A stretch of DNA of 37,712 nucleotides from a virus. The stretch spans positions 1 to 37,712 of IMG/VR virus record IMGVR_UViG_3300020188_000003. The stretch is one strand, 5' to 3'. The notes beneath the pieces are model-generated. The model did not search any database, was not told where the DNA came from, and was given only the letters and a program-made list of their open reading frames with translations. The translations under genes and the position numbers were made by a program. This document shows positions 1 to 37,712 of this stretch, piece after piece (within the stretch, counting starts at the first letter, position 1; each line of letters begins with the position of its first letter).

Positions 1-127
1 AGCACGCCACCAGGCTTCAGACCATCAAGACTCTTGGCAAAGAAGTAATTGTGAATACTGAATTTGGATAAATCCTTACGCTTACCGTCATACAACTTCT
101 GGCTACCAAAGGGCGGATTGCCTATTG
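1..127. repeat. Terminal overlap, left copy
   Basis: These 127 bases are identical to positions 37586-37712. An exact 127-base match at both ends is the usual signature of a circular contig produced with a 127-base k-mer, so the unit genome is most likely 37,585 bp and circular or circularly permuted. Both copies lie inside the methylase domain of the giant gene, and joining them keeps its reading frame, which argues against a packaged terminal repeat. Confidence 0.93.
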
Positions 128-3100
128 CCAGGTCGAAATAACCGTCTGGCATAGTGAAGTCCTGGAATCCCATTGGTGTTTTAATGCTCGCACCAGGGTA
201 AAGGTGTAAGGCAATGCCTCCGGTAATGTGATCAAGCTCTACGCCGGTGATCTGACTCTTACCGCGCACGCCTGCCGGCATCATCCCTAAGAAATTACCA
301 GTACCAACTGAAGGCTCAAGCACGCGCCCACCAGAAAAACCCATCTCCTTCACCGCCTTCCAGATTGAAGTAACAATCTCCTGGCTTGTGTAGTGGGCAT
401 CCTGCGTGCTTCTGCGCGCTGCGTCATACTCAGCATCGGTAAGCAACTCTTTAAGCTGTGCCGCCTCTTTTTCCCATCCTTTTGATACCTTGCCAGCATC
501 ACCATAAAACGCTTGAGGAATGCCACCCCAACCAACGTAACGCGCAAGCGCTTGCTGTTCTTCTGGCGTAGCCTGGCGGCCTTCAGACTCAAGCGACTTC
601 AGGATCTTGATAGCTTCCAGATTATTCTTGAATTTGGTTTTCTGGCCACCCTCACCGATACCCATATCAGGCGTGATAGTGAACATCTTAGCCGGTCGCT
701 GCTCTGCACTTGTGGCCTTTTGAGTTGTATCACCCTCAGGTGTCGGCGCTTCTTCTGCTGCTTTTTCTTCAGCCTGAATTAGCTCTGCATCCCCTCTTGA
801 TACTGGTCGGCCTGCATTGCCCGGCTTTTCATCTGTAACGCTTCCTGGTACATCGGTGCCGCGCTGCTCGCCTTGTCCGGTTCGCTCTGCTCCGCTGGTG
901 GAAACAGGTGGTTCTCCCTGACCATCTGAAACGCCTCGTCCGGTTGATAGCCCTGGTTCTCCAGCTCGCTCACTTCCGCCAGTGTCTGCTCTGCCGCCTG
1001 CTTCAACGCCAGTTCCAGTGTCCCCTGCTTTTTCAGTGCTTGGTACTTGCTCGGCTGGAACTCCTGCCAGTGTTTCTTGGCCTGGCTGATCCAATTCTGT
1101 AGGTTCATTGGTTTGCTCCTGTGCTTGCTCTGGTTGCCAGGCTGCTTGTAAATCGGTGAGTAGCTTTTGCTTTTGCGACTCTGGTAAATCAGATCGTTCA
1201 ATGGCTCGCTGAACGGCCACGCCCTTTGATTGTCTGTTCTCTGCGCCTGGCTCACTGGCAACATTGTTAATACGCCCTTCAATATCTCTGCGCACTTGTC
1301 GCTGCCCTGGCGTCAAAGTGGCATAGTCAATTAAACCGGTTAACGCTTCTGCGTCATTCCACACTTGGCGAGCCGCATCACTATCAAGCTTGCCAGCCTG
1401 GCGTAACTTGTTAGCGTAATCTCTCGCCTTCATTAAATCGTTTCGCCAATCAGCTTTAGGCGTCAGTGCATCGTCAACTCGCTCGGCGGTATCTGCCACA
1501 GGAATATCCTCTGCGCTACGCTTTCCAGGCTCTGAGGCAATATCACTAGGCTGTTTCTGCTGTGCTGGTTCAGGTACTCGTCCAGGCTCCTGGCTTCGCT
1601 GCTGCTGATCACCTTGTCGTTCAACGCCTGCTGTATCCACTCTTGCATTTTCTTCACCACGCTTCTGGTTGTACTCCTGAATGCGGTTATCTCGAATGAA
1701 AACGCCCCCATCCTTTTTGAAAGCATAGGGGTCAATTTCTTTGGCCTGGTCCAATGTCATTTCACGATCAATGACGCCGGTTAGTTCCTTTCCTCGCTTG
1801 GTTGTGTGCTGAACTCTCTCAGCGCCTTCACCATAGACTGGCGCCGCATCAGCTGGTTGTGCTTCATCTTGAGCTTGTTCTTCAATTGGCGCTTCTTGCT
1901 TGGGCTCATCCTTAACTTGCTCCTTGGTCTGTTCTTCAACAACCACTTCCTGAGTAGGAACTTCAAGCGGTACATCAACATTCTCAGTCATTGCTGCCTG
2001 CTTTGGCGCGTAATCAACTACTGGCGCCGGTTTAACTCCGCGCTGTTCAAGCTTCTCTGCAACAAGCTCTGCCATGCTTTTTCGCTGCACTGGCTGCTGC
2101 TGTTGCTGAGCATTTGCAGGATCAAAGGCTTGTGCTGCCGCCTGCTCTGCTGGTGCAAACTGAGTTGCATCAACAATTTGGTTAAGAACCTCACCAAGTC
2201 GGCGCTCTTTGCTTTTTGATACATCAACACCGGATTTTACTACGGCCCCAGCACCACCCATCAAACCAGTAACGATGGTTGTTGGAACTACCTGTTTACG
2301 GAAAGCATCACCAACACTAAGCTCCTCATTGGTCATTCCGGCTTCGAGTTCAGCGCGATTCTGGCCGACTGCGGTAGCTGTTTCGGTCACATTCTCAGTG
2401 CCAAGTGTTGTCGCGGCGCGCTTAGTAATCTCCATGAGCTTTTGTTTGCCCATGCCTTTGAGTGGCGCAGTGAAAGCGCGTAAAAATACAAGGTTTCCAA
2501 CGGCTTCTGGTATCGCTTCCCATGCGCCATACTTTGTCGCGGCAGCGTCGAACTCAGCGTAAGCTTTATCCCATTCTTCTTGGGTAAGCTCACGCCCATA
2601 AATTTCTTTGGCTTTTTGGTTTAACCCTTCTTGGACGCGGCTCAAGAACTCATCACGGCTACCACGATAAGCAACAGTCCCGGCTGTTGTACCTGCCGCC
2701 ATACCTGTAGCGATTGGATTTTTGGTAACTAAACCAGTTAAGGCTCCAGCCGTAATAGCTGATGTCATTGTGCTAAGGCTGTATCCGAGAGACTTACCTA
2801 TTCCGTAGAAAGAGTCATAGTTGGGGTCTGGGTTTTCTGGCGGCTCCGGCTCAGTGTAATCAATAGCGCGGTCTAGCCATGTTTTATCCGCCGTTTCATC
2901 TCCACCACGAATGGAACGCATAACGGTATTGGCTGCGCCAGGTATGAGATCAGGCAACTCCTTGATCGTAATATCGGTGGCCTCTGCAAGCGCCTGTATG
3001 GTTGGCCTGCCTTCAGGGTTAAATACAGGGCGACTACCGCCAACGCTCTTGTAAACCTCATCGACTGACACCCCTTTCTCTTTGGCTATCTGGCGAGCCT

Positions 3101-3422
3101 GATACTCAATCCATGCGGCATCTTTGTTGGCTGGAATAATGCCTTTGATCTTGTCCCACAAGGTAGGCTCATAAGCCACCATCTGAGGACCTTCTGGCAC
3201 ATTGCGCGCAGCGCCGGTAAACCCATCTATTTCTGGCTCACCAAAAGAAAGCGCATTCGATACGCGCTGCATGATTCCTGGTTGTTCTGGCTCTGTCTTC
3301 GGTCCGTAAAGCTCATTGTGCCAGGCGGCCAACTCCTTGGCGCCCTGGGTATCCCCTGAAAGGTGTGCTTTCTCAAGTGCTGTTAGCAACTGGTCCTTTG
3401 TAGGTTGTTGGTTCTCTGCCAT
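1..3422 (-). CDS. Giant polyvalent virion protein, N-terminal part (N6-adenine methylase; continues across contig ends)
   Basis: First 1,140 codons of a 3,683-aa protein that continues at 37585 and stops at 29956; both pieces are in the same frame once the 127-base overlap is removed. The ATG at 3422 follows GAGG by 5 nt and lies 8 nt after the preceding stop. Residues 1-200 are helical, and about 211-253 are Gly/Ala-rich and hydrophobic, possibly membrane-interacting. Residues about 430-960 are mostly a Q/E/P/G-rich disordered linker with some helical islands. The methylase follows: a YVGWGG motif, SAM-binding LEPSVGTGNF at 1035-1044 and catalytic NPPF at 1102-1105. This is the family of phage and plasmid methylase-helicase polyvalent proteins (DarB-like). 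Such proteins are thought to be packaged and injected to protect incoming DNA from restriction. Position after the ejection genes fits that role. The linker also holds two nested genes in another frame. Confidence 0.9.
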   Translation of the reverse strand, partial: MAENQQPTKDQLLTALEKAHLSGDTQGAKELAAWHNELYGPKTEPEQPGIMQRVSNALSFGEPEIDGFTGAARNVPEGPQMVAYEPTLWDKIKGIIPANKDAAWIEYQARQIAKEKGVSVDEVYKSVGGSRPVFNPEGRPTIQALAEATDITIKELPDLIPGAANTVMRSIRGGDETADKTWLDRAIDYTEPEPPENPDPNYDSFYGIGKSLGYSLSTMTSAITAGALTGLVTKNPIATGMAAGTTAGTVAYRGSRDEFLSRVQEGLNQKAKEIYGRELTQEEWDKAYAEFDAAATKYGAWEAIPEAVGNLVFLRAFTAPLKGMGKQKLMEITKRAATTLGTENVTETATAVGQNRAELEAGMTNEELSVGDAFRKQVVPTTIVTGLMGGAGAVVKSGVDVSKSKERRLGEVLNQIVDATQFAPAEQAAAQAFDPANAQQQQQPVQRKSMAELVAEKLEQRGVKPAPVVDYAPKQAAMTENVDVPLEVPTQEVVVEEQTKEQVKDEPKQEAPIEEQAQDEAQPADAAPVYGEGAERVQHTTKRGKELTGVIDREMTLDQAKEIDPYAFKKDGGVFIRDNRIQEYNQKRGEENARVDTAGVERQGDQQQRSQEPGRVPEPAQQKQPSDIASEPGKRSAEDIPVADTAERVDDALTPKADWRNDLMKARDYANKLRQAGKLDSDAARQVWNDAEALTGLIDYATLTPGQRQVRRDIEGRINNVASEPGAENRQSKGVAVQRAIERSDLPESQKQKLLTDLQAAWQPEQAQEQTNEPTELDQPGQETLAGVPAEQVPSTEKAGDTGTGVEAGGRADTGGSERAGEPGLSTGRGVSDGQGEPPVSTSGAERTGQGEQRGTDVPGSVTDEKPGNAGRPVSRGDAELIQAEEKAAEEAPTPEGDTTQKATSAEQRPAKMFTITPDMGIGEGGQKTKFKNNLEAIKILKSLESEGRQATPEEQQALARYVGWGGIPQAFYGDAGKVSKGWEKEAAQLKELLTDAEYDAARRSTQDAHYTSQEIVTSIWKAVKEMGFSGGRVLEPSVGTGNFLGMMPAGVRGKSQITGVELDHITGGIALHLYPGASIKTPMGFQDFTMPDGYFDLAIGNPPFGSQKLYDGKRKDLSKFSIHNYFFAKSLDGLKPGGV
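779..1108 (-). CDS. Nested gene in +1 frame of giant gene, 109 aa, conserved-looking helical protein
   Basis: This gene of 109 aa is read on the same strand as the giant gene but one base out of phase. The ATG at 1108 is preceded by AGGAG with 7 nt spacing, as good as any ribosome site in this genome. Codon use is strongly gene-like (mostly CTG, CAG, GAG, GCG). The product begins MNLQNWISQAKKHWQEFQPS, is helical, and has a run ending MVRENHLFPP. I recall similar small phage proteins with a Trp-rich start and an E-x-Y/H-LFPP ending, but could not check. The giant protein in the same bases is Gly/Thr/Ser/Glu-rich and disordered, so this gene appears to be the ordered product. The longer open frame back to 1282 lacks gene-like composition, so I chose 1108. 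Function unknown. Confidence 0.8.
   Translation of the reverse strand: MNLQNWISQAKKHWQEFQPSKYQALKKQGTLELALKQAAEQTLAEVSELENQGYQPDEAFQMVRENHLFPPAEQSEPDKASSAAPMYQEALQMKSRAMQADQYQEGMQS
1463..1648 (-). CDS. Nested gene in +1 frame of giant gene, 61 aa
   Basis: A 61-aa product starting MQEWIQQALNDKVISSSEAR and ending LWQIPPSELTMH, in the same +1 frame as the nested gene at 779-1108. The ATG at 1648 follows GGTGA with 5 nt spacing, a good though not perfect ribosome site; the open frame extends upstream to 1735 without gene-like composition. Its codons favour CTG, CAG and AGC, and the product looks like a compact helical protein, while the giant protein here is a Q/E/R-rich low-complexity stretch. 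The short form and the Trp-rich C-terminal end recall small uncharacterised phage proteins, but no function can be assigned. It may be co-translated with, or independent of, the giant gene. Confidence 0.65.
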   Translation of the reverse strand: MQEWIQQALNDKVISSSEARSLDEYLNQHSRNSLVILPQSLESVAQRIFLWQIPPSELTMH

Positions 3423-3429
3423 CCCCGCC

Positions 3430-4317
3430 TCACTGTGAATACATTTCAAGTAATTTGTTGCGGTCTATATTACCACTTTGCCCCAAATCTTGAACCTGAA
3501 TACCAAGCTTTCTCGCTGCTTGTGTTACAGCTTGCGAGCGAGTAACGCCACCTTGGCTATAAATCTTAGCCGCTTCAGTTGCAATAGACTGGACCTTGCC
3601 GCGTGTGGCCGGGTCAAGGTTTTGAAGGTTGCCTTGCTGGTCAAACAAACCACCAAGCAACTCGCCAGCCTGGCGATACATCAATGACTCATCAGCTGAC
3701 TTTAAGCCACCATCGCCACTCGCACGCGTTAATGCGTTCTGCCGGCTTGTCTGACGGTCAAGCTCTTGGCTACTTGTTGTGCGCTCGATAACTCGGCCAT
3801 CCTTATACAAGCGGTCCTCTGTGCCAAACGTCATGCGTTCAGGGTTCTGTAGCAACTCATCAACTTGGCGAGCTCTGGCAAGCTGCATTTGAAGGAAGTT
3901 AGGATCGTATTGCTCAGGCATTTTTGCTGCGAGCTCTGGGGATACACTTTGGCGCGCAAGCTGATAAGCCTGCTCAGGGTTTTCAGACTGAAGAACATAG
4001 GCTGACATTTTGCCAACTGCATCAATATTTTCTTGCGTTTGCTGGCGCTGGCGATCATCCATCTTGCTCAATGAGTCAAGCATCTTCTTAGCTTCTTCAG
4101 GGTCAAAAGCGTTTAACTCTTGCATGGCTTGTTGATCGCCAGCTGAAGCCTTTGAGCGCAATTCAGAAAGAGCGTTACCACGCTGCCGCGCTGCATCACG
4201 ATCTTCCTTCTTCCAGTCCATCATCAACGCGTTGCTCTCGCGTGACTGACGCGCACCTTTCACGGCCTCAACGGTTCGGTAAACCTGGCCTAAGTCAATT
4301 CCAAAAGCATTAGCCAT
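3430..4317 (-). CDS. Probable internal virion / DNA ejection protein, 295 aa
   Basis: Acidic-basic, Gln-rich, almost wholly helical protein (MANAFGIDLGQVYRTVEAVK at its start) with no signal peptide or catalytic motif. It lies between the gp7-like ejection protein (3 nt upstream) and the giant virion protein (8 nt downstream), which in P22-like and Bcep22-like podoviruses is the place for proteins carried in the head and ejected with the DNA. The ribosome site is formed by the last G-rich codons of the upstream gene. Membership of an ejection complex is inferred from position and composition; I do not recognise a specific family. Confidence 0.7.
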   Translation of the reverse strand: MANAFGIDLGQVYRTVEAVKGARQSRESNALMMDWKKEDRDAARQRGNALSELRSKASAGDQQAMQELNAFDPEEAKKMLDSLSKMDDRQRQQTQENIDAVGKMSAYVLQSENPEQAYQLARQSVSPELAAKMPEQYDPNFLQMQLARARQVDELLQNPERMTFGTEDRLYKDGRVIERTTSSQELDRQTSRQNALTRASGDGGLKSADESLMYRQAGELLGGLFDQQGNLQNLDPATRGKVQSIATEAAKIYSQGGVTRSQAVTQAARKLGIQVQDLGQSGNIDRNKLLEMYSQ

Positions 4318-29938: not shown

Positions 29939-29971
29939 ATTATAACGCGCACTCCCTATTGGGAAAGCGCG
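29939..29971 (-). promoter_or_regulatory. Hairpin and TATAAT element before the tail fibre gene
   Basis: On the minus strand an imperfect stem (GCGCG/CGCGC and TCCC/GGGA around a four-base loop, 29971-29946) spans the stop of the giant gene and is followed by GTTATAATGTTTATTATTT. TATAAT at 29944-29939 is perfect, but no good -35 is present. It may be an attenuator for the giant message, a weak promoter for the fibre, or both. Confidence 0.4.
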
Positions 29972-32900
29972 CTTTCAACTTGTTCCAGGGCCTTGTTAGC
30001 CTGCTCGTAGAACTGCGCAAGTGCGTTGTTCTTCTGCTGGTACCAGTTTTCTATTCTCCTTTCCTTTTCATCCCTGGTCAGATCCGGGTTGTACTTGATT
30101 GCCGCAAGCACCGCTTCCTGGTCCTTGAATGCGCCATCAATCTGCCTAAAGGCGTTATCCATGCTGATAAGCAACTGGTTAACTTTGTCGGCTGAAAAGT
30201 CTTTCATTGGCTGCTGATCGCGTATTGCTTGTGCGGTCAGTAGGTCAAATGCAGACTTAGCGCCGGCTGCCTTTTTCTTGAGTTCAAAATAACCTTCAGT
30301 CCATTTTGTTCGATAAGGGACACGCTGCCCCTGGAATTGATAGGTTAGGTAGTCAATCGGTTCTTTAACGAATGGACGCGGCCCCCACTCTTTTTCATTC
30401 CATAGCAAGGCTTCACTGCCATCTGAGATATACGCCTCAACGTAACGCAAGTAACCTTTCATGTAATGCTCGGCCACCAATGGCGACACTCCAAGCGCTT
30501 CACCAAGATTGCGGTACAGTTGCGGCGTGCGATCAGTGAATTGATACTCGTTAGGAACGTGCATCAACTTCTCAGGGACAATAGGCGCGCCTGTGAATTT
30601 CTTATTCCTGGCCACCTCAATCATTGGCTGGAATATGCCAGGGTAATCACCAACACCAAGCGTATTAGCAAAAGTCCATGCCAGCGTCTGCGCTGCCTCT
30701 TTACCATCACGCTCCTTGATATAGTCAAGGCTTACTTCTGGTATGGTTGCGAACAAATGCCCTATATCGTATGGACGCGGAATTTTAAGAGGCTTCTCTG
30801 CACCAGGAAGGAAGATCCACCAGAATCGCGCCTTTTGGTCTGGCGTCAATGCCTGGTACCGGTCATCATCCTCATTCAGCAACCACAAGATCACTGTCAT
30901 AAGAGTTAGCACTCCACCAGCCGCCAGGAATCGCACCTTAGCATCATCAAGTTTTGCCAGGTTGCTACCCTTCATTTCACCGCGCAATTCAAATATCTCT
31001 CGCGCTGTTTTATCCAGGCCCTGAATACCGGCATTCATAAACGGAACAGTACGAAGGAACTTGGCCCACAACTCATTGCGCCCCATCTTGCTAAAGTCTG
31101 TTGCAACTTCCCTAGCCTCCCATGCAGCCTCAAGCGCATTCTTTCCAGCTTGGCGGCCACGGCGATAATCACCAAGGCGGCTACCATACTCAAATGCACT
31201 AGCAAAACGGTCATACCCCGCCAAAAACTTAGCTGCGGTATCCCACATATTGCGGCTTGGCAGATCAAGCTGTCGGCGCTTTCTGGTTTCCTCTGTTCTT
31301 GCCTCTATACGGGTACCATATCCGCCACCATGCAAACGAAACTCACGGTAAAGCTTGGTGTGGAATATGGCGTGCCCCATACCAATCAAGGTATCCCATA
31401 CTGGAATGAACTTGTTTTTACTGATCACAAAGGCGCTCAACGTATCGCGCACAGCGTTTGGACCAAGGAACTGAAGCATTGACGTTACAGTGCGGGTTTG
31501 CAGGTTCTTAACGCGGAACATGGCATTAAGCAACGCGCCAGACTTAAAGCCTCTCATACCGGTTAGCATATCCACCAGCAACGGATTGCGAACCTCAAAC
31601 CAGGTGCGCTTACCATCAATGATGGCACTATCAACGTATGTTTCTGCTGTCGTTGGCTTGTGCCCAAATGTCCAGAAGTTAAGCAGATCAGGGTTAGACT
31701 CAAGGGCCTGGGCAATATCATCAACATCAGTGATCTGCGCATCAGGATCGCCGGCCATAATCATTCCATCTTTGCTTACTGTTAAGCCAACATCAGCCAT
31801 GGCTTCAGCAATTTTTGCCGCCATCTGAGTTTGCTCAACCTTAACCAGCTTGCTATCTGGCGATAACTTAACTGCAAACAGGGAACCATCCTGGCTAGTC
31901 ATAATGTCCCGGTATAGCGTTTGCTTGGCCCTGGCAATCAATGCCGCCCTGATATTTGAGTAAAGTCCCTCAACAATGTTTTCAGCAATGTCTCGCACGT
32001 TCTGAGTGCCGCCGCTCAATCGCTTACCAATTGACGTTGTGCCAGCCTGATCACCATCTTCAAGGCGCTCTATTACCCGGTGGAATGGAACATAGTTTTT
32101 GTTGGCATCAGCAAAGGCTTGCTTCTGCTTCCCATCAATCAGGCCCATCTGCTCGTAGAAGTCCAGCATTCGCTTGTTGAACTCCTGATACTCCTTGAAT
32201 ACATCACGGAACTCAGGGTATGTAACACCAAGCTTTAACCCGGCCTCAATCTCTTGCTTTGTGAACAGCCTTTCACGGCCCTGCTTCATAAGCTCATTGG
32301 CCCGGCGCGCCTTGAAGTAATCCATAAGCAAGTCAAAACGCTTCCATCCATGTTTTGATACCGGCCAAAACACTTGGTTAAGCCCCTTGCCGTTAAACTC
32401 AAAGGTCCCATCTTCAGCAAGTGAAGGCGTGCCATCTTTCAAAATCGCTTCATGTAACGACTCTGAACCATTGATAAGCTGGAACTGCTTGAATGGGCTT
32501 AACGCCGCATCACGAACCTCACCATGAAGCGTGCGCTCAACAACCTTGGCTGCATGGATCTTATCAATTACTTCCTGTCGATAGCGCTCAAGCGGGTATG
32601 ACTGCATGTACTGGATGATCTGCTGAGACTGACTTAACTCTTTACCAGACTTGGCACGCAACTGAGCGCGAGCGCCTTGCAGGTACCACCGGTGCATTTC
32701 ATCCTGAAGCTTAACCATCTTCTTATTGAGCGTTGAATCTTCAGCAAGCACCTGCTCAAAACGCTGGGTAAACAATGGCGCCGCCGCTTTTGCCTCTGCA
32801 TAGTTTGTGAGCCATAGACGCACAAATTCAGCAAAGCCTTCTTTGTACTTCAGATTCTTCTGGCTTGTATAGCTCAGGCCGGCAACCTCATCACGATACT

Positions 32901-35900
32901 TGGTATCCTTGTATGCCCTGGTAAATCGCTTGTTGTAGCGGTAGTGCATATCAAGGTAGTGAGCCATTTCATGGGCCATAACCTCAACATCATCATAATT
33001 AGCAACACGAACTTCACTGTTATTCTTACGGTAGAAGCCAAGCTTTGACTTGCCTTTCACTTTGCCTTGATAAAGCCTTGGCCCTATAACATCCTCGACC
33101 ATAACGCGCACACCCTCACGGCGCGTTGGCTGTTCCTCTGGCTTTAACTTCACCACTCTATCACCAATGGAAAACTCATCACCTTCAGGGCGCTTAGGTA
33201 CGCCAGCCTGGCGATATGTTGGGCGCCAGTTAGGCATAGGCACATCAGCTCCAGCGTTGTACATCATTGCACTGGTGCCATCCTGCTCTATTTCTTCCTG
33301 ATCCCTGTTTTTAGGTTTCAACTCTGCAATAACCAAGGCATGACGCGCCTTAACCTTTGCAAGCTCATCAGCTTGCGACCAATCAGCAATCTGACCTTCA
33401 AGATCTGGAATGTCACGCTCAGCCTGTTTGATAAGCTCAGCCTCATTCTTGGCATCAACACTGATACGCCTAACAGTATTGGTAATGCGCATAGCCAAGC
33501 CAGTAGGATCAGCTTCAGCAATATCTGGAATATCAACCTGGTATTCCTGCTCGCCCTCTATGGTGATCACGAACTCAGCACCACTGATATTATCCAGGCG
33601 CAACTTAAAGCCAGCATATTCACCGATAGGCTTTGTCTCTTGCCCGGCATCAGCCATCTTATTGGCCGCCGCAAGCAATGCCTGGCCAGCCTCTTTGTGC
33701 TTATCGTACTTGCCGCTATTGATTGTGATAGAGAAGTCTTTTGGCGCTTTCTCTGCCTTTTTAGCATCACGCGTAAACTTCAGCATTCTATCCTTACCGG
33801 TTTCAATGCGTAGCTTCAGGCGGCGCACCTGATCTCGAATGCGGAATTGCTCGCGGTCATGCTCATCTTCAAGCTGCTCAAGCTTTCTGATCTTCTGGCG
33901 CAAGTCCATTTCCTCAAGGATAAGCGGGTTGCCACTTGAGGCCGCTTTCATTTCAGCTGCATTACTTGCCTCGCCGCCAACATCCTCAATCTCACGCGTC
34001 TTGGTATTACCCTTGCGCACCTGCTCAATGAATCGCGCCTTAGTTTCAATGGTCTGCCACATACGGCTATCAAGCGTCTGCTTGGTTGCGTAGCGGTTAA
34101 TCTCAACCTCAAATCCATCAGGGTCACGCTCATAAAGCTTGTTGCCCTGGCGAATGATACGACCTTCACGCTGTTCAAGGTCAGAAGGCCGCCATGGTGC
34201 ATCCATGTGGTGTAGCGCAACAAGGCGCTCCTGCACGTTCATGCCGGCGCCCATCTTGGCGGTAGAACCAAACAACACACGAATGCGACCACTACGAACC
34301 TTACCAAACAGTTCTTCTTTCTGAAGCTCCGTATTAGCATCGTGAATAAATGCTATCTCCTGCTCAGGAATACCCTTATTGATAAGCTTCTGGCGCAAGT
34401 CATCGTAAACACTGAAATCACCATCAAGCGCCGACAACTCATCAGGACTCATCTTGTCGAGTTCATCCTGGGCGCGCTCATCACCGTTATCTGCTTTTTC
34501 AATCAGATCACGGATTCTCGCCGCCTCTTTTGCCTTGGCGCCTTTAGGTGTGCTCAAGTCAATGAATACCAACTGAGCGCCTTTGTCTGCACTCCATTGG
34601 TCATAGATACGCTTAATGTTGTCTGCTGCCTGATTTACTTTGCTACCTTCATAGTCGCCGTACATGGCAGGGTCTATCATGCGCATATCAAGCGCCGCCT
34701 TCCTGGCGTCACTCATTATCTTCAGCATGTTATCCGCGCCCTTTTCAGGCTTCTTAGGCAAGTGCTCAGCACGCCAAACAAGACTTCCTTCAGGGTATGA
34801 CTCGCGGCCATTCTCATCGGTGATAGGCTCGCCAATATAAGCGGCCTGGTCATCACTTCGAGTAACAACAACATTCTGAGGCTTGCCGCCTTTAACCTTT
34901 GGCACCGGTAGGCGCTTGCCCTGGGCTGCCAGTTGGCGGTTAATGTCATCACGGTTGATAACATCACCAAACGATAGATAGCGCTGCATAAGCTCAGGGA
35001 TGTTCACAAATTTACTGAAGCGACTGTTTAGCTTGTAGGTGCCTGAAGGCGACAACTCCCAATCAGTAACAACCTCACCATACATGCGCGCCCATGCGTC
35101 AAAGTGCGCAATACCCTGGTCCTGCAATGCCTGGTAATCCAGGTAGCGCTGCATGGTGTACATTTCGGCCATGGTATTGCTGATCGGCGTGCCGGTGGCA
35201 AATACCACGTTATTCCCGCCAGTTTTTTCCAGGACAAACTGAGTTTTCATAAACAGGTCTGCCGCCTTCTGACTGCCTTGTGGATTACCAAGGCCGGCAA
35301 CGCGGGTCATGCTGGTGGCAAAGCCAAGGTTTTTAAACTCATGCGCTTCATCAAGGAATAGCGCATCAACACCAAGCTCACCAAAGGTTAAGTTGTCATC
35401 CTTGTTCTCAGCATCAAATAGTTTCTTCAGCTTTTCCTGAAGGCGCTCTTTCTGCTTCTCAATCTGCTTAATGCTGCGTGACTTCTGCCCGTCCTGGGCC
35501 CGGATATTCTGAATAGCCTCGTCAATGTCACGGATCTGCTGGTTGATAAAGCGCTCTTGGAACTCCTTATCCATTTCAACCTTACCAAACGATGAGTGCG
35601 CAACAATAACAGCATCCCAATCACCGGTAGCAATGCGAGCAAATAAGCGCTTACGGTTGCCTTTCTCAAAGTCCTTCTTGGTAGCTGCCAGCACATTTGC
35701 GCCAGGGTAAAGCTTGGTGAAGTCCTCCGCCCATTGCCCGACCAAGTGATTAGGAACAACAAACATCGGCTTCTTAGCTCGGCCCATGCGGCGCATTTCC
35801 ATAGCGCCAGCAACCATAGTGAAAGTCTTACCAGCACCAACAACGTGATCAAGCAAGGTTGTGCCAGACTGAACGATACGCCAAACAGCGTTAGCCTGGT

Positions 35901-37712
35901 GTGGACGCAACTTGATAATGTCGTCACTGACCTTTCCAGGGAAAGTAAGGTGCGAACCATCAAACTCACGCAAGCGATCGGTGTTGAAGGTATCGTTATA
36001 AATCCTGGTCAACCGACCACGCCGCGCATCATCCTGCCAAACCCAACGGCGAAACTCTGCCTTTAAACGCTCAACCTTTTCATTGGCCGCATTGGTGGCC
36101 GCCTCATTCACGCGTGTTGTGTTTTCGTCAATACGGTCACGCACAACAATCTGCTTTTGGTTTGCAGCTGCTGCAACAATGTCAGTAACCTGAACTCGGT
36201 CAGTACCCCAACGCGAACGCGCCGCCTCAGTTGGTACGCCATCAATAGACCATTTTGCATTGGTAGGGATATAAACAGCCTTGCCGCTTTCATTACCAAG
36301 CACATGATCAACAAACGACTTCATATCTTCACGCGGCAACCAGTGAGCACCAGGCTTAACGTCAATATCAACGGCCTCAATATCTTCAGGCTGAACCGAC
36401 TCAAGGGCCTGGACGTTGCGCTTATACTTGCTGTCTGCCTTGGCAAGCTGCTTTGCCTGGGCAAGCTTCTGCTTAACATTACCGCTAAGGTATTGATCAC
36501 GCGTTTCAAATCGGCCAGGCTCAACTTCAAACACAAGATCACCAAGCTCATTGGCAATGTATCCTGGCGTTTTGTTGTAAAGCTTAGCCATGTAATCCAT
36601 ATCAATGACGCCATACTCAGACAAGCTTGCTGCCATGGCATCCTTGGCCGTTGTCGCTTTGGTGGGCGCCTTATATGGTGACTGAGTGCGCTTGTAGAAT
36701 ATCGCCGCCTTTTGGGCGCTTGGCTTGCGTGATTGCTCGCCGGTTTTCTTCGCCATTGCTGGCGTAATTCCTTTATCGAATGATTCTTCAAGGGCTGCAA
36801 TTTGCGGCCAGGTAGGATCATCACGGAACAACCGCTTATTGGCATCTGAGTTTATTGGCCCATGAGACTTAACAAACGCGTCATATTCACGATTAAGACG
36901 CGTGCGCAACGCGTCAAGTGCCGCATCTTTCACGCCTTCAGTAAGCTGCGCCTTTCTCAAATCGGTGAATACATCACGGACCTTTATCATTCCCTCAACG
37001 CGCTGGCGCGCTTTATCGCTTGCAAACTCAACTGGCTCAGCCTGGACGCTACCAAGCTCATTATCCTGGCGCACCATAACCTGGCCGCCATCCATGAACA
37101 TACTTCCAACCTTGACGTTATCAACACTGGTGGATAGCTTAACTTCCTCTTTTGCTGGTTCTGCCTTTGACTCTGCCATAATACCTTTTGGTAGCTTAGC
37201 CAAAGCCTCACGCAACAACGCGCCGGTGTCCTGACCTTCACGCGCTACAAGCGCCGGGTCATTTGGGCCATACATAGAACCGTATGCACCCCACTCACCA
37301 AGCATCATGTCGGGATTTTTTACAAAGTATTCATTCAGTGGTGTTTCAATGCCTTTGGCGTCTTTCACTGTTTCAGTGCGCTTCCATGAAGGTCCTTTTC
37401 TTGGTGTGCCTTCTTCGCGCTTTTGAAGGAATACAATATCAGTTGTTACTTCTGTCCCGGCGTTCTTCAGGAAGGCGTTGTTAGGCAAGCGAACAGCGCC
37501 AAGGAAGTCTGCACGATTAGCCATGTACTCACGCGCTGCCTGATTGCTCTGACCATCCATAAGACGGTTAGATACGACCATTGCCAGCACGCCACCAGGC
37601 TTCAGACCATCAAGACTCTTGGCAAAGAAGTAATTGTGAATACTGAATTTGGATAAATCCTTACGCTTACCGTCATACAACTTCTGGCTACCAAAGGGCG
37701 GATTGCCTATTG
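29956..37712 (-). CDS. Giant polyvalent virion protein, C-terminal part (methylase end, SNF2 helicase, metalloprotease-like, LPD38)
   Basis: Continues from position 1. Numbering by the full 3,683-aa protein: end of the methylase (NPPF at 1102, repeated in the overlap), a YLSGNVKQKLAQAKQ segment typical of such methylase-helicases near 1500, Walker A GAGKT at 1724-1728, DEAH at 1886-1889, and helicase motif VI QREGRIIRQGN near 2278. HEMAH at 2679-2683 with a downstream EGFAEF near 2721 forms a metalloprotease-like domain. The end holds a PFMNAGIQGLDKTAREIF segment near 3320, as in LPD38, and a hydrophobic stretch (LTLMTVILWLL) near 3365. Such proteins guard injected DNA by methylation and translocation. 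It may also be cleaved into parts. Only one start (3422) is supported. Confidence 0.92.
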   Translation of the reverse strand, partial: IGNPPFGSQKLYDGKRKDLSKFSIHNYFFAKSLDGLKPGGVLAMVVSNRLMDGQSNQAAREYMANRADFLGAVRLPNNAFLKNAGTEVTTDIVFLQKREEGTPRKGPSWKRTETVKDAKGIETPLNEYFVKNPDMMLGEWGAYGSMYGPNDPALVAREGQDTGALLREALAKLPKGIMAESKAEPAKEEVKLSTSVDNVKVGSMFMDGGQVMVRQDNELGSVQAEPVEFASDKARQRVEGMIKVRDVFTDLRKAQLTEGVKDAALDALRTRLNREYDAFVKSHGPINSDANKRLFRDDPTWPQIAALEESFDKGITPAMAKKTGEQSRKPSAQKAAIFYKRTQSPYKAPTKATTAKDAMAASLSEYGVIDMDYMAKLYNKTPGYIANELGDLVFEVEPGRFETRDQYLSGNVKQKLAQAKQLAKADSKYKRNVQALESVQPEDIEAVDIDVKPGAHWLPREDMKSFVDHVLGNESGKAVYIPTNAKWSIDGVPTEAARSRWGTDRVQVTDIVAAAANQKQIVVRDRIDENTTRVNEAATNAANEKVERLKAEFRRWVWQDDARRGRLTRIYNDTFNTDRLREFDGSHLTFPGKVSDDIIKLRPHQANAVWRIVQSGTTLLDHVVGAGKTFTMVAGAMEMRRMGRAKKPMFVVPNHLVGQWAEDFTKLYPGANVLAATKKDFEKGNRKRLFARIATGDWDAVIVAHSSFGKVEMDKEFQERFINQQIRDIDEAIQNIRAQDGQKSRSIKQIEKQKERLQEKLKKLFDAENKDDNLTFGELGVDALFLDEAHEFKNLGFATSMTRVAGLGNPQGSQKAADLFMKTQFVLEKTGGNNVVFATGTPISNTMAEMYTMQRYLDYQALQDQGIAHFDAWARMYGEVVTDWELSPSGTYKLNSRFSKFVNIPELMQRYLSFGDVINRDDINRQLAAQGKRLPVPKVKGGKPQNVVVTRSDDQAAYIGEPITDENGRESYPEGSLVWRAEHLPKKPEKGADNMLKIMSDARKAALDMRMIDPAMYGDYEGSKVNQAADNIKRIYDQWSADKGAQLVFIDLSTPKGAKAKEAARIRDLIEKADNGDERAQDELDKMSPDELSALDGDFSVYDDLRQKLINKGIPEQEIAFIHDANTELQKEELFGKVRSGRIRVLFGSTAKMGAGMNVQERLVALHHMDAPWRPSDLEQREGRIIRQGNKLYERDPDGFEVEINRYATKQTLDSRMWQTIETKARFIEQVRKGNTKTREIEDVGGEASNAAEMKAASSGNPLILEEMDLRQKIRKLEQLEDEHDREQFRIRDQVRRLKLRIETGKDRMLKFTRDAKKAEKAPKDFSITINSGKYDKHKEAGQALLAAANKMADAGQETKPIGEYAGFKLRLDNISGAEFVITIEGEQEYQVDIPDIAEADPTGLAMRITNTVRRISVDAKNEAELIKQAERDIPDLEGQIADWSQADELAKVKARHALVIAELKPKNRDQEEIEQDGTSAMMYNAGADVPMPNWRPTYRQAGVPKRPEGDEFSIGDRVVKLKPEEQPTRREGVRVMVEDVIGPRLYQGKVKGKSKLGFYRKNNSEVRVANYDDVEVMAHEMAHYLDMHYRYNKRFTRAYKDTKYRDEVAGLSYTSQKNLKYKEGFAEFVRLWLTNYAEAKAAAPLFTQRFEQVLAEDSTLNKKMVKLQDEMHRWYLQGARAQLRAKSGKELSQSQQIIQYMQSYPLERYRQEVIDKIHAAKVVERTLHGEVRDAALSPFKQFQLINGSESLHEAILKDGTPSLAEDGTFEFNGKGLNQVFWPVSKHGWKRFDLLMDYFKARRANELMKQGRERLFTKQEIEAGLKLGVTYPEFRDVFKEYQEFNKRMLDFYEQMGLIDGKQKQAFADANKNYVPFHRVIERLEDGDQAGTTSIGKRLSGGTQNVRDIAENIVEGLYSNIRAALIARAKQTLYRDIMTSQDGSLFAVKLSPDSKLVKVEQTQMAAKIAEAMADVGLTVSKDGMIMAGDPDAQITDVDDIAQALESNPDLLNFWTFGHKPTTAETYVDSAIIDGKRTWFEVRNPLLVDMLTGMRGFKSGALLNAMFRVKNLQTRTVTSMLQFLGPNAVRDTLSAFVISKNKFIPVWDTLIGMGHAIFHTKLYREFRLHGGGYGTRIEARTEETRKRRQLDLPSRNMWDTAAKFLAGYDRFASAFEYGSRLGDYRRGRQAGKNALEAAWEAREVATDFSKMGRNELWAKFLRTVPFMNAGIQGLDKTAREIFELRGEMKGSNLAKLDDAKVRFLAAGGVLTLMTVILWLLNEDDDRYQALTPDQKARFWWIFLPGAEKPLKIPRPYDIGHLFATIPEVSLDYIKERDGKEAAQTLAWTFANTLGVGDYPGIFQPMIEVARNKKFTGAPIVPEKLMHVPNEYQFTDRTPQLYRNLGEALGVSPLVAEHYMKGYLRYVEAYISDGSEALLWNEKEWGPRPFVKEPIDYLTYQFQGQRVPYRTKWTEGYFELKKKAAGAKSAFDLLTAQAIRDQQPMKDFSADKVNQLLISMDNAFRQIDGAFKDQEAVLAAIKYNPDLTRDEKERRIENWYQQKNNALAQFYEQANKALEQVESALSQ
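37586..37712. repeat. Terminal overlap, right copy
   Basis: Identical to positions 1-127. When this copy is removed the reading frame of the giant gene runs unbroken from 3422 through position 1 to 29956 (11,052 nt, divisible by three), which supports a closed circle rather than a terminal repeat. Confidence 0.93.

Follow-up and report, generated by a model that had tools for sequence, protein, structure and literature searches.

Can 61 codons that lie wholly inside a very long virion-protein gene, and in another reading frame, constitute a gene of their own? The question is raised by a complete, terminally redundant and circularly permuted phage record of 37,712 bp with a 127-bp end repeat, which is close to Vibrio phage VvAW1 and which is referred to here, at its full length, as the window. 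The gene that houses the small frame, here called the giant, has a total length of about 3,690 amino acids and yields profile matches to phrog_10089 (DarB-like; 4e-119), LPD38 (1e-39), ResIII (8e-11) and Helicase_C (4e-6), and a match to the Eco57I methylase that falls under its cut-off. Judged by its sequence the giant is a DarB-like polyvalent protein of great length that combines putative methylase, SF2 helicase and LPD domains; it has the methylase and helicase domains, LPD38 and the PHROG assignment DarB-like in common with DarB of phage P1 and the polyvalent proteins (LPD domains). An earlier note on this DNA had proposed a pair of overprinted genes in the same frame and in the same linker of the giant, N1 and the 61-codon N2 (Table 1), and both are supported by their conservation and by dual-frame substitutions. 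For N2, with which we are mainly concerned, the conservation, the frame, the position of the start and the selection have been established by computation, and these argue strongly that N2 is a real, internally initiated nested gene, a reading that we consider very probable.

Table 1. Features of the giant gene and of the genes nested in it (positions are those of the window unless a locus is named)
Feature	Position	Strand	Remarks
N2	1463..1648	minus	nested gene, frame +1 of the giant, 61 aa + stop
N2 ribosome-binding site GGTGA	1654..1658	minus	5-nt spacing to ATG
N1	779..1108 (782-1108 without stop)	minus	first nested gene, 109 aa + stop, frame +1 of the giant; TnpV-like domain
Linker of the giant between N2 and N1	1109..1462	minus	giant more order-like; +1 frame broken by stops; hypervariable
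66-aa basic +1 ORF upstream of N2	1784..1981	minus	low complexity; N2-like substitution classes in the VvAW1 clade
Giant DarB-like gene, 5' part	3..3449	minus	1149 aa; TTG 3449, first ATG 3422; runs across the genome ends
Giant gene, 3' part	29956..37710	minus	helicase + LPD38 domains; joined to the 5' part via the 127-bp terminal repeat
N3 loci	L051, L057-L061, L064-L070, L072-L074, L077, L079, L083, others		about 6-6.7 kb after N1
Example peptide for the N2/N1 products			VISKSEALQLTK

Read on the minus strand from ATG 1648 to the stop at 1463, N2 gives the product MQEWIQQALNDKVISSSEARSLDEYLNQHSRNSLVILPQSLESVAQRIFLWQIPPSELTMH*, whereas the giant's frame translates the same DNA as NARVDTAGVERQGDQQQRSQEPGRVPEPAQQKQPSDIASEPGK... 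The ATG is preceded by ...GCGTGGTGA-AGAAA, in which GGTGA occupies positions 1658-1654, and the coordinates, the 61 codons and the spacing of 5 nt are all as the earlier note had claimed. Its description of the two frames is likewise correct for the window genome. Over N2 the giant is indeed rich in Q/E/R (52% Q/E/R/P/K/S), and its order-promoting residues amount to 11% there, 21% in the linker and 10% over N1, versus 37%, 30% and 25%, respectively, in the +1 frame. Order thus alternates between the frames, and the +1 frame loses its gene-like sequence between N2 and N1, where it is interrupted by 5 stops.

The homology search with the 61-aa product that had been proposed finds nested homologues in the same +1 relation in seven VvAW1-type genomes (87-98% identity for six viral contigs of that clade, among them VvAW1) and in the giants of Thalassomonas phage BA3, Vibrio phage FGH and two contigs (31-39% identical). 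In the family to which the BA3 protein belongs the sequence similarity spans the full length (z 10-14): against FGH and BA3 the window N2 scores z 14 and 10, respectively, whereas the giant frame over that DNA scores only z 3-4. The BA3 homologue, BA3_0004 (ABV74289.1), is 31-33% identical to the window N2 and 71% identical to the FGH protein. Like N2 it lies in frame +1 of a DarB-like giant, namely the counterpart BA3_0002; unlike N2 it has already been deposited as a separate, anonymous hypothetical protein of 110 aa with an upstream start, of which only the last 63 residues are backed by homology. Stop codons in close relatives, which the earlier note had named as speaking against its claim, were not found, the N2 frame being open in all VvAW1-type and BA3/FGH-type relatives. 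LASTA and SopranoGao were rejected as N2 carriers; their +1 frame has stops at the N2 position.

Further members are probably present in more distant phages. The Erwinia phages PEp14, Pavtok and Stean have, upstream of N1 and in the N1 frame, a nested protein of similar length (64-68% identical to that of PEp14), and the metagenomic phages L088 and L102 have one of N2 length in the same place and frame. For both groups the sequence statistics are weak (Vibrio versus Erwinia members: HMM E 0.02-24, hhalign P 1e-4), so that the Erwinia, L088 and L102 proteins are graded as probable distant homologues, for which the case leans on position, frame, length and the ending LP-x-x-L...L...H-stop that they have in common with the Vibrio-type N2. 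When the translations of loci with N1 (about 2 million residues) were searched with a loose signature of this C-terminus, 8 matches lay in the N1 (+1) frame and 1 was antisense; the other two sense frames had none. A free-standing N2 was not found in phage records, in viral contigs or in a scan of 84,980 species with one genome from each. In this respect the homologue as a separate gene elsewhere, the lack of which the earlier note had named as speaking against its claim, did not turn up; the claim for N2 nevertheless stands, since every homologue found is nested in a giant, which points to a gene native to the giant gene family. That related giants keep the nested pair is true of the VvAW1-type, Erwinia and L088 lineages but not of BA3 and FGH, which carry N2 without N1. 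Since, in addition, most N1-bearing giants are without a recognisable N2, N1 and N2 are separate modules. In the VvAW1 clade no part of the giant diverges more than the linker between them: between otherwise close relatives 40-50% of its sites differ (1109-1462), at all three codon positions, and its length varies between lineages. Such hypervariability between two conserved nested genes suggests module exchange by recombination.

The dual-frame selection test favours both nested genes. Over N2 the change at third positions of the giant is 0.22 versus 0.53 in the flank for BA3/FGH (P 5e-6) and 0.11 versus 0.43 for the window and c36466 (P 8e-7), and the Erwinia phages exhibit a comparable shift (P 6e-4). 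In the BA3/FGH clade changes that are silent in N2 and nonsilent in the giant are more frequent (0.39 per site) than those of the reverse class (0.20), and dN/dS of the nested frame is 0.31 in N2 versus 0.8-0.9 in the flanks. Within N2 of the VvAW1 clade both classes are equally frequent (0.126 and 0.113), whereas in the 46 codons upstream they are 0.02 and 0.31, and the synonymous rate of the giant, normal in these upstream codons (0.31), is 0.11 within N2. It should be added that the substitution classes of N2 are not unique when only the VvAW1 clade is considered, a low-complexity stretch (1949-1830) behaving somewhat alike; the 66-aa ORF upstream of N2 has no counterpart among relatives outside this clade, BA3/FGH included. 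Base composition was scanned in the GC-rich giants of PEp14, Pavtok, Stean and L088 (2,580-4,670 codons) for an inversion in which GC1 is up and GC3 is down, and N1 proved to be the one further region with an inversion as strong as that of N2. In N1 the exchange of constraint is complete (giant p3 0.02, p1 up to 0.3). There is, in short, purifying selection in the N2 frame beyond the giant's own demands, weaker when the VvAW1 clade is taken alone.

These data have to be set against the simplest alternative, namely that the frame is open by chance: codons of a Q/E/R-rich giant seldom yield +1 stops, and relatives would be open because their giant frames are similar. By itself the open span is indeed ordinary and proves nothing from one genome, and it is only comparison that supplies significance. 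When the codons of the giant were resampled synonymously with its amino acids kept, the N2 span of the window was stop-free in 32% of the trials, and for four genomes including the window P was 0.20-0.43. Chance openness does not explain, however, why the similarity of the nested frame exceeds that of the giant frame, why third positions are depleted in three lineages, why the GC1-GC3 inversion is confined to N2 and N1, or why a start and a ribosome-binding site are conserved. This alternative is already contradicted, and its probability is very low. Synonymous constraint alone cannot separate coding from non-coding constraint, and the depletion in the giant could in principle reflect a DNA or RNA element (a structure, a packaging or a regulatory site) with no protein. 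Such an element would not be expected to have substitutions and base composition that track the nested codon phase (N2-nonsynonymous changes being the rarer class; GC1 up, GC3 down), indels in multiples of three, and an amino-acid similarity that survives where the DNA has diverged, and we regard it as next to negligible.

A third alternative accepts the N2 frame as coding but assigns it another start: by programmed ribosomal frameshifting a truncated giant would be formed whose C-terminus is N2. A product of this kind can be imagined because in Sinorhizobium phage PBC5 (L027 1-5309) a single ORF, orf33 (2185 aa), joins the first half of the giant in frame with the N1 frame, and because the +1 frame is stop-free for 36 codons ahead of the N2 ATG. 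PBC5 is, however, a single old record, and its fusion may be due to a sequencing indel. The similarity between N2 proteins begins exactly at the initiator Met, the +1-frame codons upstream being without conservation, and ribosome-binding sites are found ahead of N2 starts. Every lineage tested has a Shine-Dalgarno match there, which ranks among the best 0.4-14% of the giants' ATGs, that of the window being the weakest (best 14%) and those of FGH, c29258 and the Erwinia phages the strongest; in four relatives the site is GGAGTGA (GGAG, 8 nt). The start codon itself is ATG in L102 (L102:200-235) and CTG in the 97%-identical L088 (L088:6000-6035), GGAGAGG preceding both. From the onset of similarity at the ATG and the Shine-Dalgarno match in every lineage, internal initiation is favoured over frameshifting, which we consider very unlikely. 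The conserved ATG (CTG in L088), the ribosome-binding site and the onset of conservation at the ATG point, at the level of sequence, to a translation start of N2's own.

With internal initiation, N2 would be a small gene translated on its own, its frame (+1) superimposed on one of the giant's disordered linkers. On the late mRNA of the giant, ribosomes would initiate at ATG 1648 by means of the purine-rich site upstream of it, which would yield a 61-aa protein. For this product AlphaFold2 predicts three helices (residues 3-10, 16-28 and 39-51; pLDDT 82, pTM 0.60) from an alignment from which the phage-record rows were left out, so that N2 is modelled as a three-helix protein. The sole good structural match to the model is a viral BFVD entry of 110 residues, A8HNW3 (TM 0.86), which, judged by length and identity, is very probably BA3_0004. 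Pfam, PHROGs, NCBIfam and the PDB sequences yielded nothing significant for N2; the hits to phrog_101 CII-like (E 0.2) and YmfL (E 0.02) are taken as chance helical matches. In the PDB Foldseek found no match to the fold, and the best Z of a second comparison (4.4) is uninformative for a helical bundle. As to its role, the likeliest, which we put forward tentatively, is that of a partner of the giant, i.e., an adaptor for assembly or packaging, or else a regulator of the giant's domains. This is our first guess because all homologues sit inside giants and because N2 would be on the late message of the giant, a protein that is packaged and is presumably ejected together with the DNA. Next comes a doubtful candidate, an independent small protein that targets the host or a defence.

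Phage genes embedded in other genes are a known kind, although mostly as single cases. The embedded Rz1/Rz spanin genes resemble N2 in that a whole small gene lies inside another one in a different frame and is conserved across phages. N2 differs from them in that its sequence has no cysteine and no hydrophobic N-terminus, hence neither an Rz1-type lipobox nor a signal peptide, and in that its host gene codes for a giant virion protein rather than for lysis. With the overprinted lysis genes of microviruses and leviviruses N2 has in common that a second protein is laid into an existing frame where the older one is disordered or permissive; here, in contrast, several unrelated small genes are found in the linkers of one polyvalent gene of tailed phages. 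N2 and N1 have almost always been missed by annotation programs in related phages because gene finders reject ORFs wholly contained in another. No mention of nested genes in the giant was found in papers on polyvalent proteins, VvAW1 and JC1, and in the papers searched, most subscription papers lying outside them, no description was found of nested genes that recur in linkers of such giants. The text of the paper that defines polyvalent proteins describes no nested genes (PMC5512222).

The partner gene N1, which has AGGAG 7 nt ahead of its ATG, lies within a long giant ORF, in its frame +1, in each of the 58 viral loci found and has free-standing relatives in bacterial contigs (L106, L109, L120, L122 and others). 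Its resemblance to TnpV (PF14198) is weak: E values up to 1 were obtained for 18 of 25 members (best 7e-7), and the single score obtained, 20.7 bits, is under the gathering cut-off of 27 bits. Its fold has no match in the PDB. The PHROG label "endolysin" (phrog_938) for N1 was rejected. It was traced to PBC5 orf33, the length of which (2185 aa) is that of the profile and in which N1 is fused in frame, so that the label is uninformative for N1; the frame fusion of one record has made a database name a nested gene "endolysin".

A third nested family, N3, of about 60 aa ("...DPPSPFDTLQKWKDW...LKQARQIIREKSA") is absent from the window and occurs in about 20 rhizobial-type giants, always in frame +1 of giants of 3,000-5,000 aa, the third positions of which are depleted there (P 2e-5 to 6e-4). 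Together with N1 in its 58 viral loci and N2 in about four lineages, N3 makes it fairly likely that the polyvalent giants of podophages are "deep operons", whose disordered inter-domain linkers would systematically house several small, folded and separately translated +1 proteins, co-produced partners of the giant that standard annotation discards. Mutually unrelated small genes recur in frame +1 of a single class of very long genes for virion proteins. The phages concerned are those of Vibrio, Thalassomonas, Erwinia, Klebsiella, Pseudomonas and Rhizobiales, and the small products, if translated, are candidate partners of DarB-like proteins. N2 and its giant provide a clean natural case in which a putatively folded protein overlies a disordered one and constraint passes back and forth between two frames of the same gene. 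A minor observation concerns Pseudomonas phage Itty13 (L029), in which long antisense ORFs have been annotated over the giant: the giant itself, on the opposite strand, has at least 3,425 codons without a stop and contains N1, which makes the deposited annotation look reversed there.
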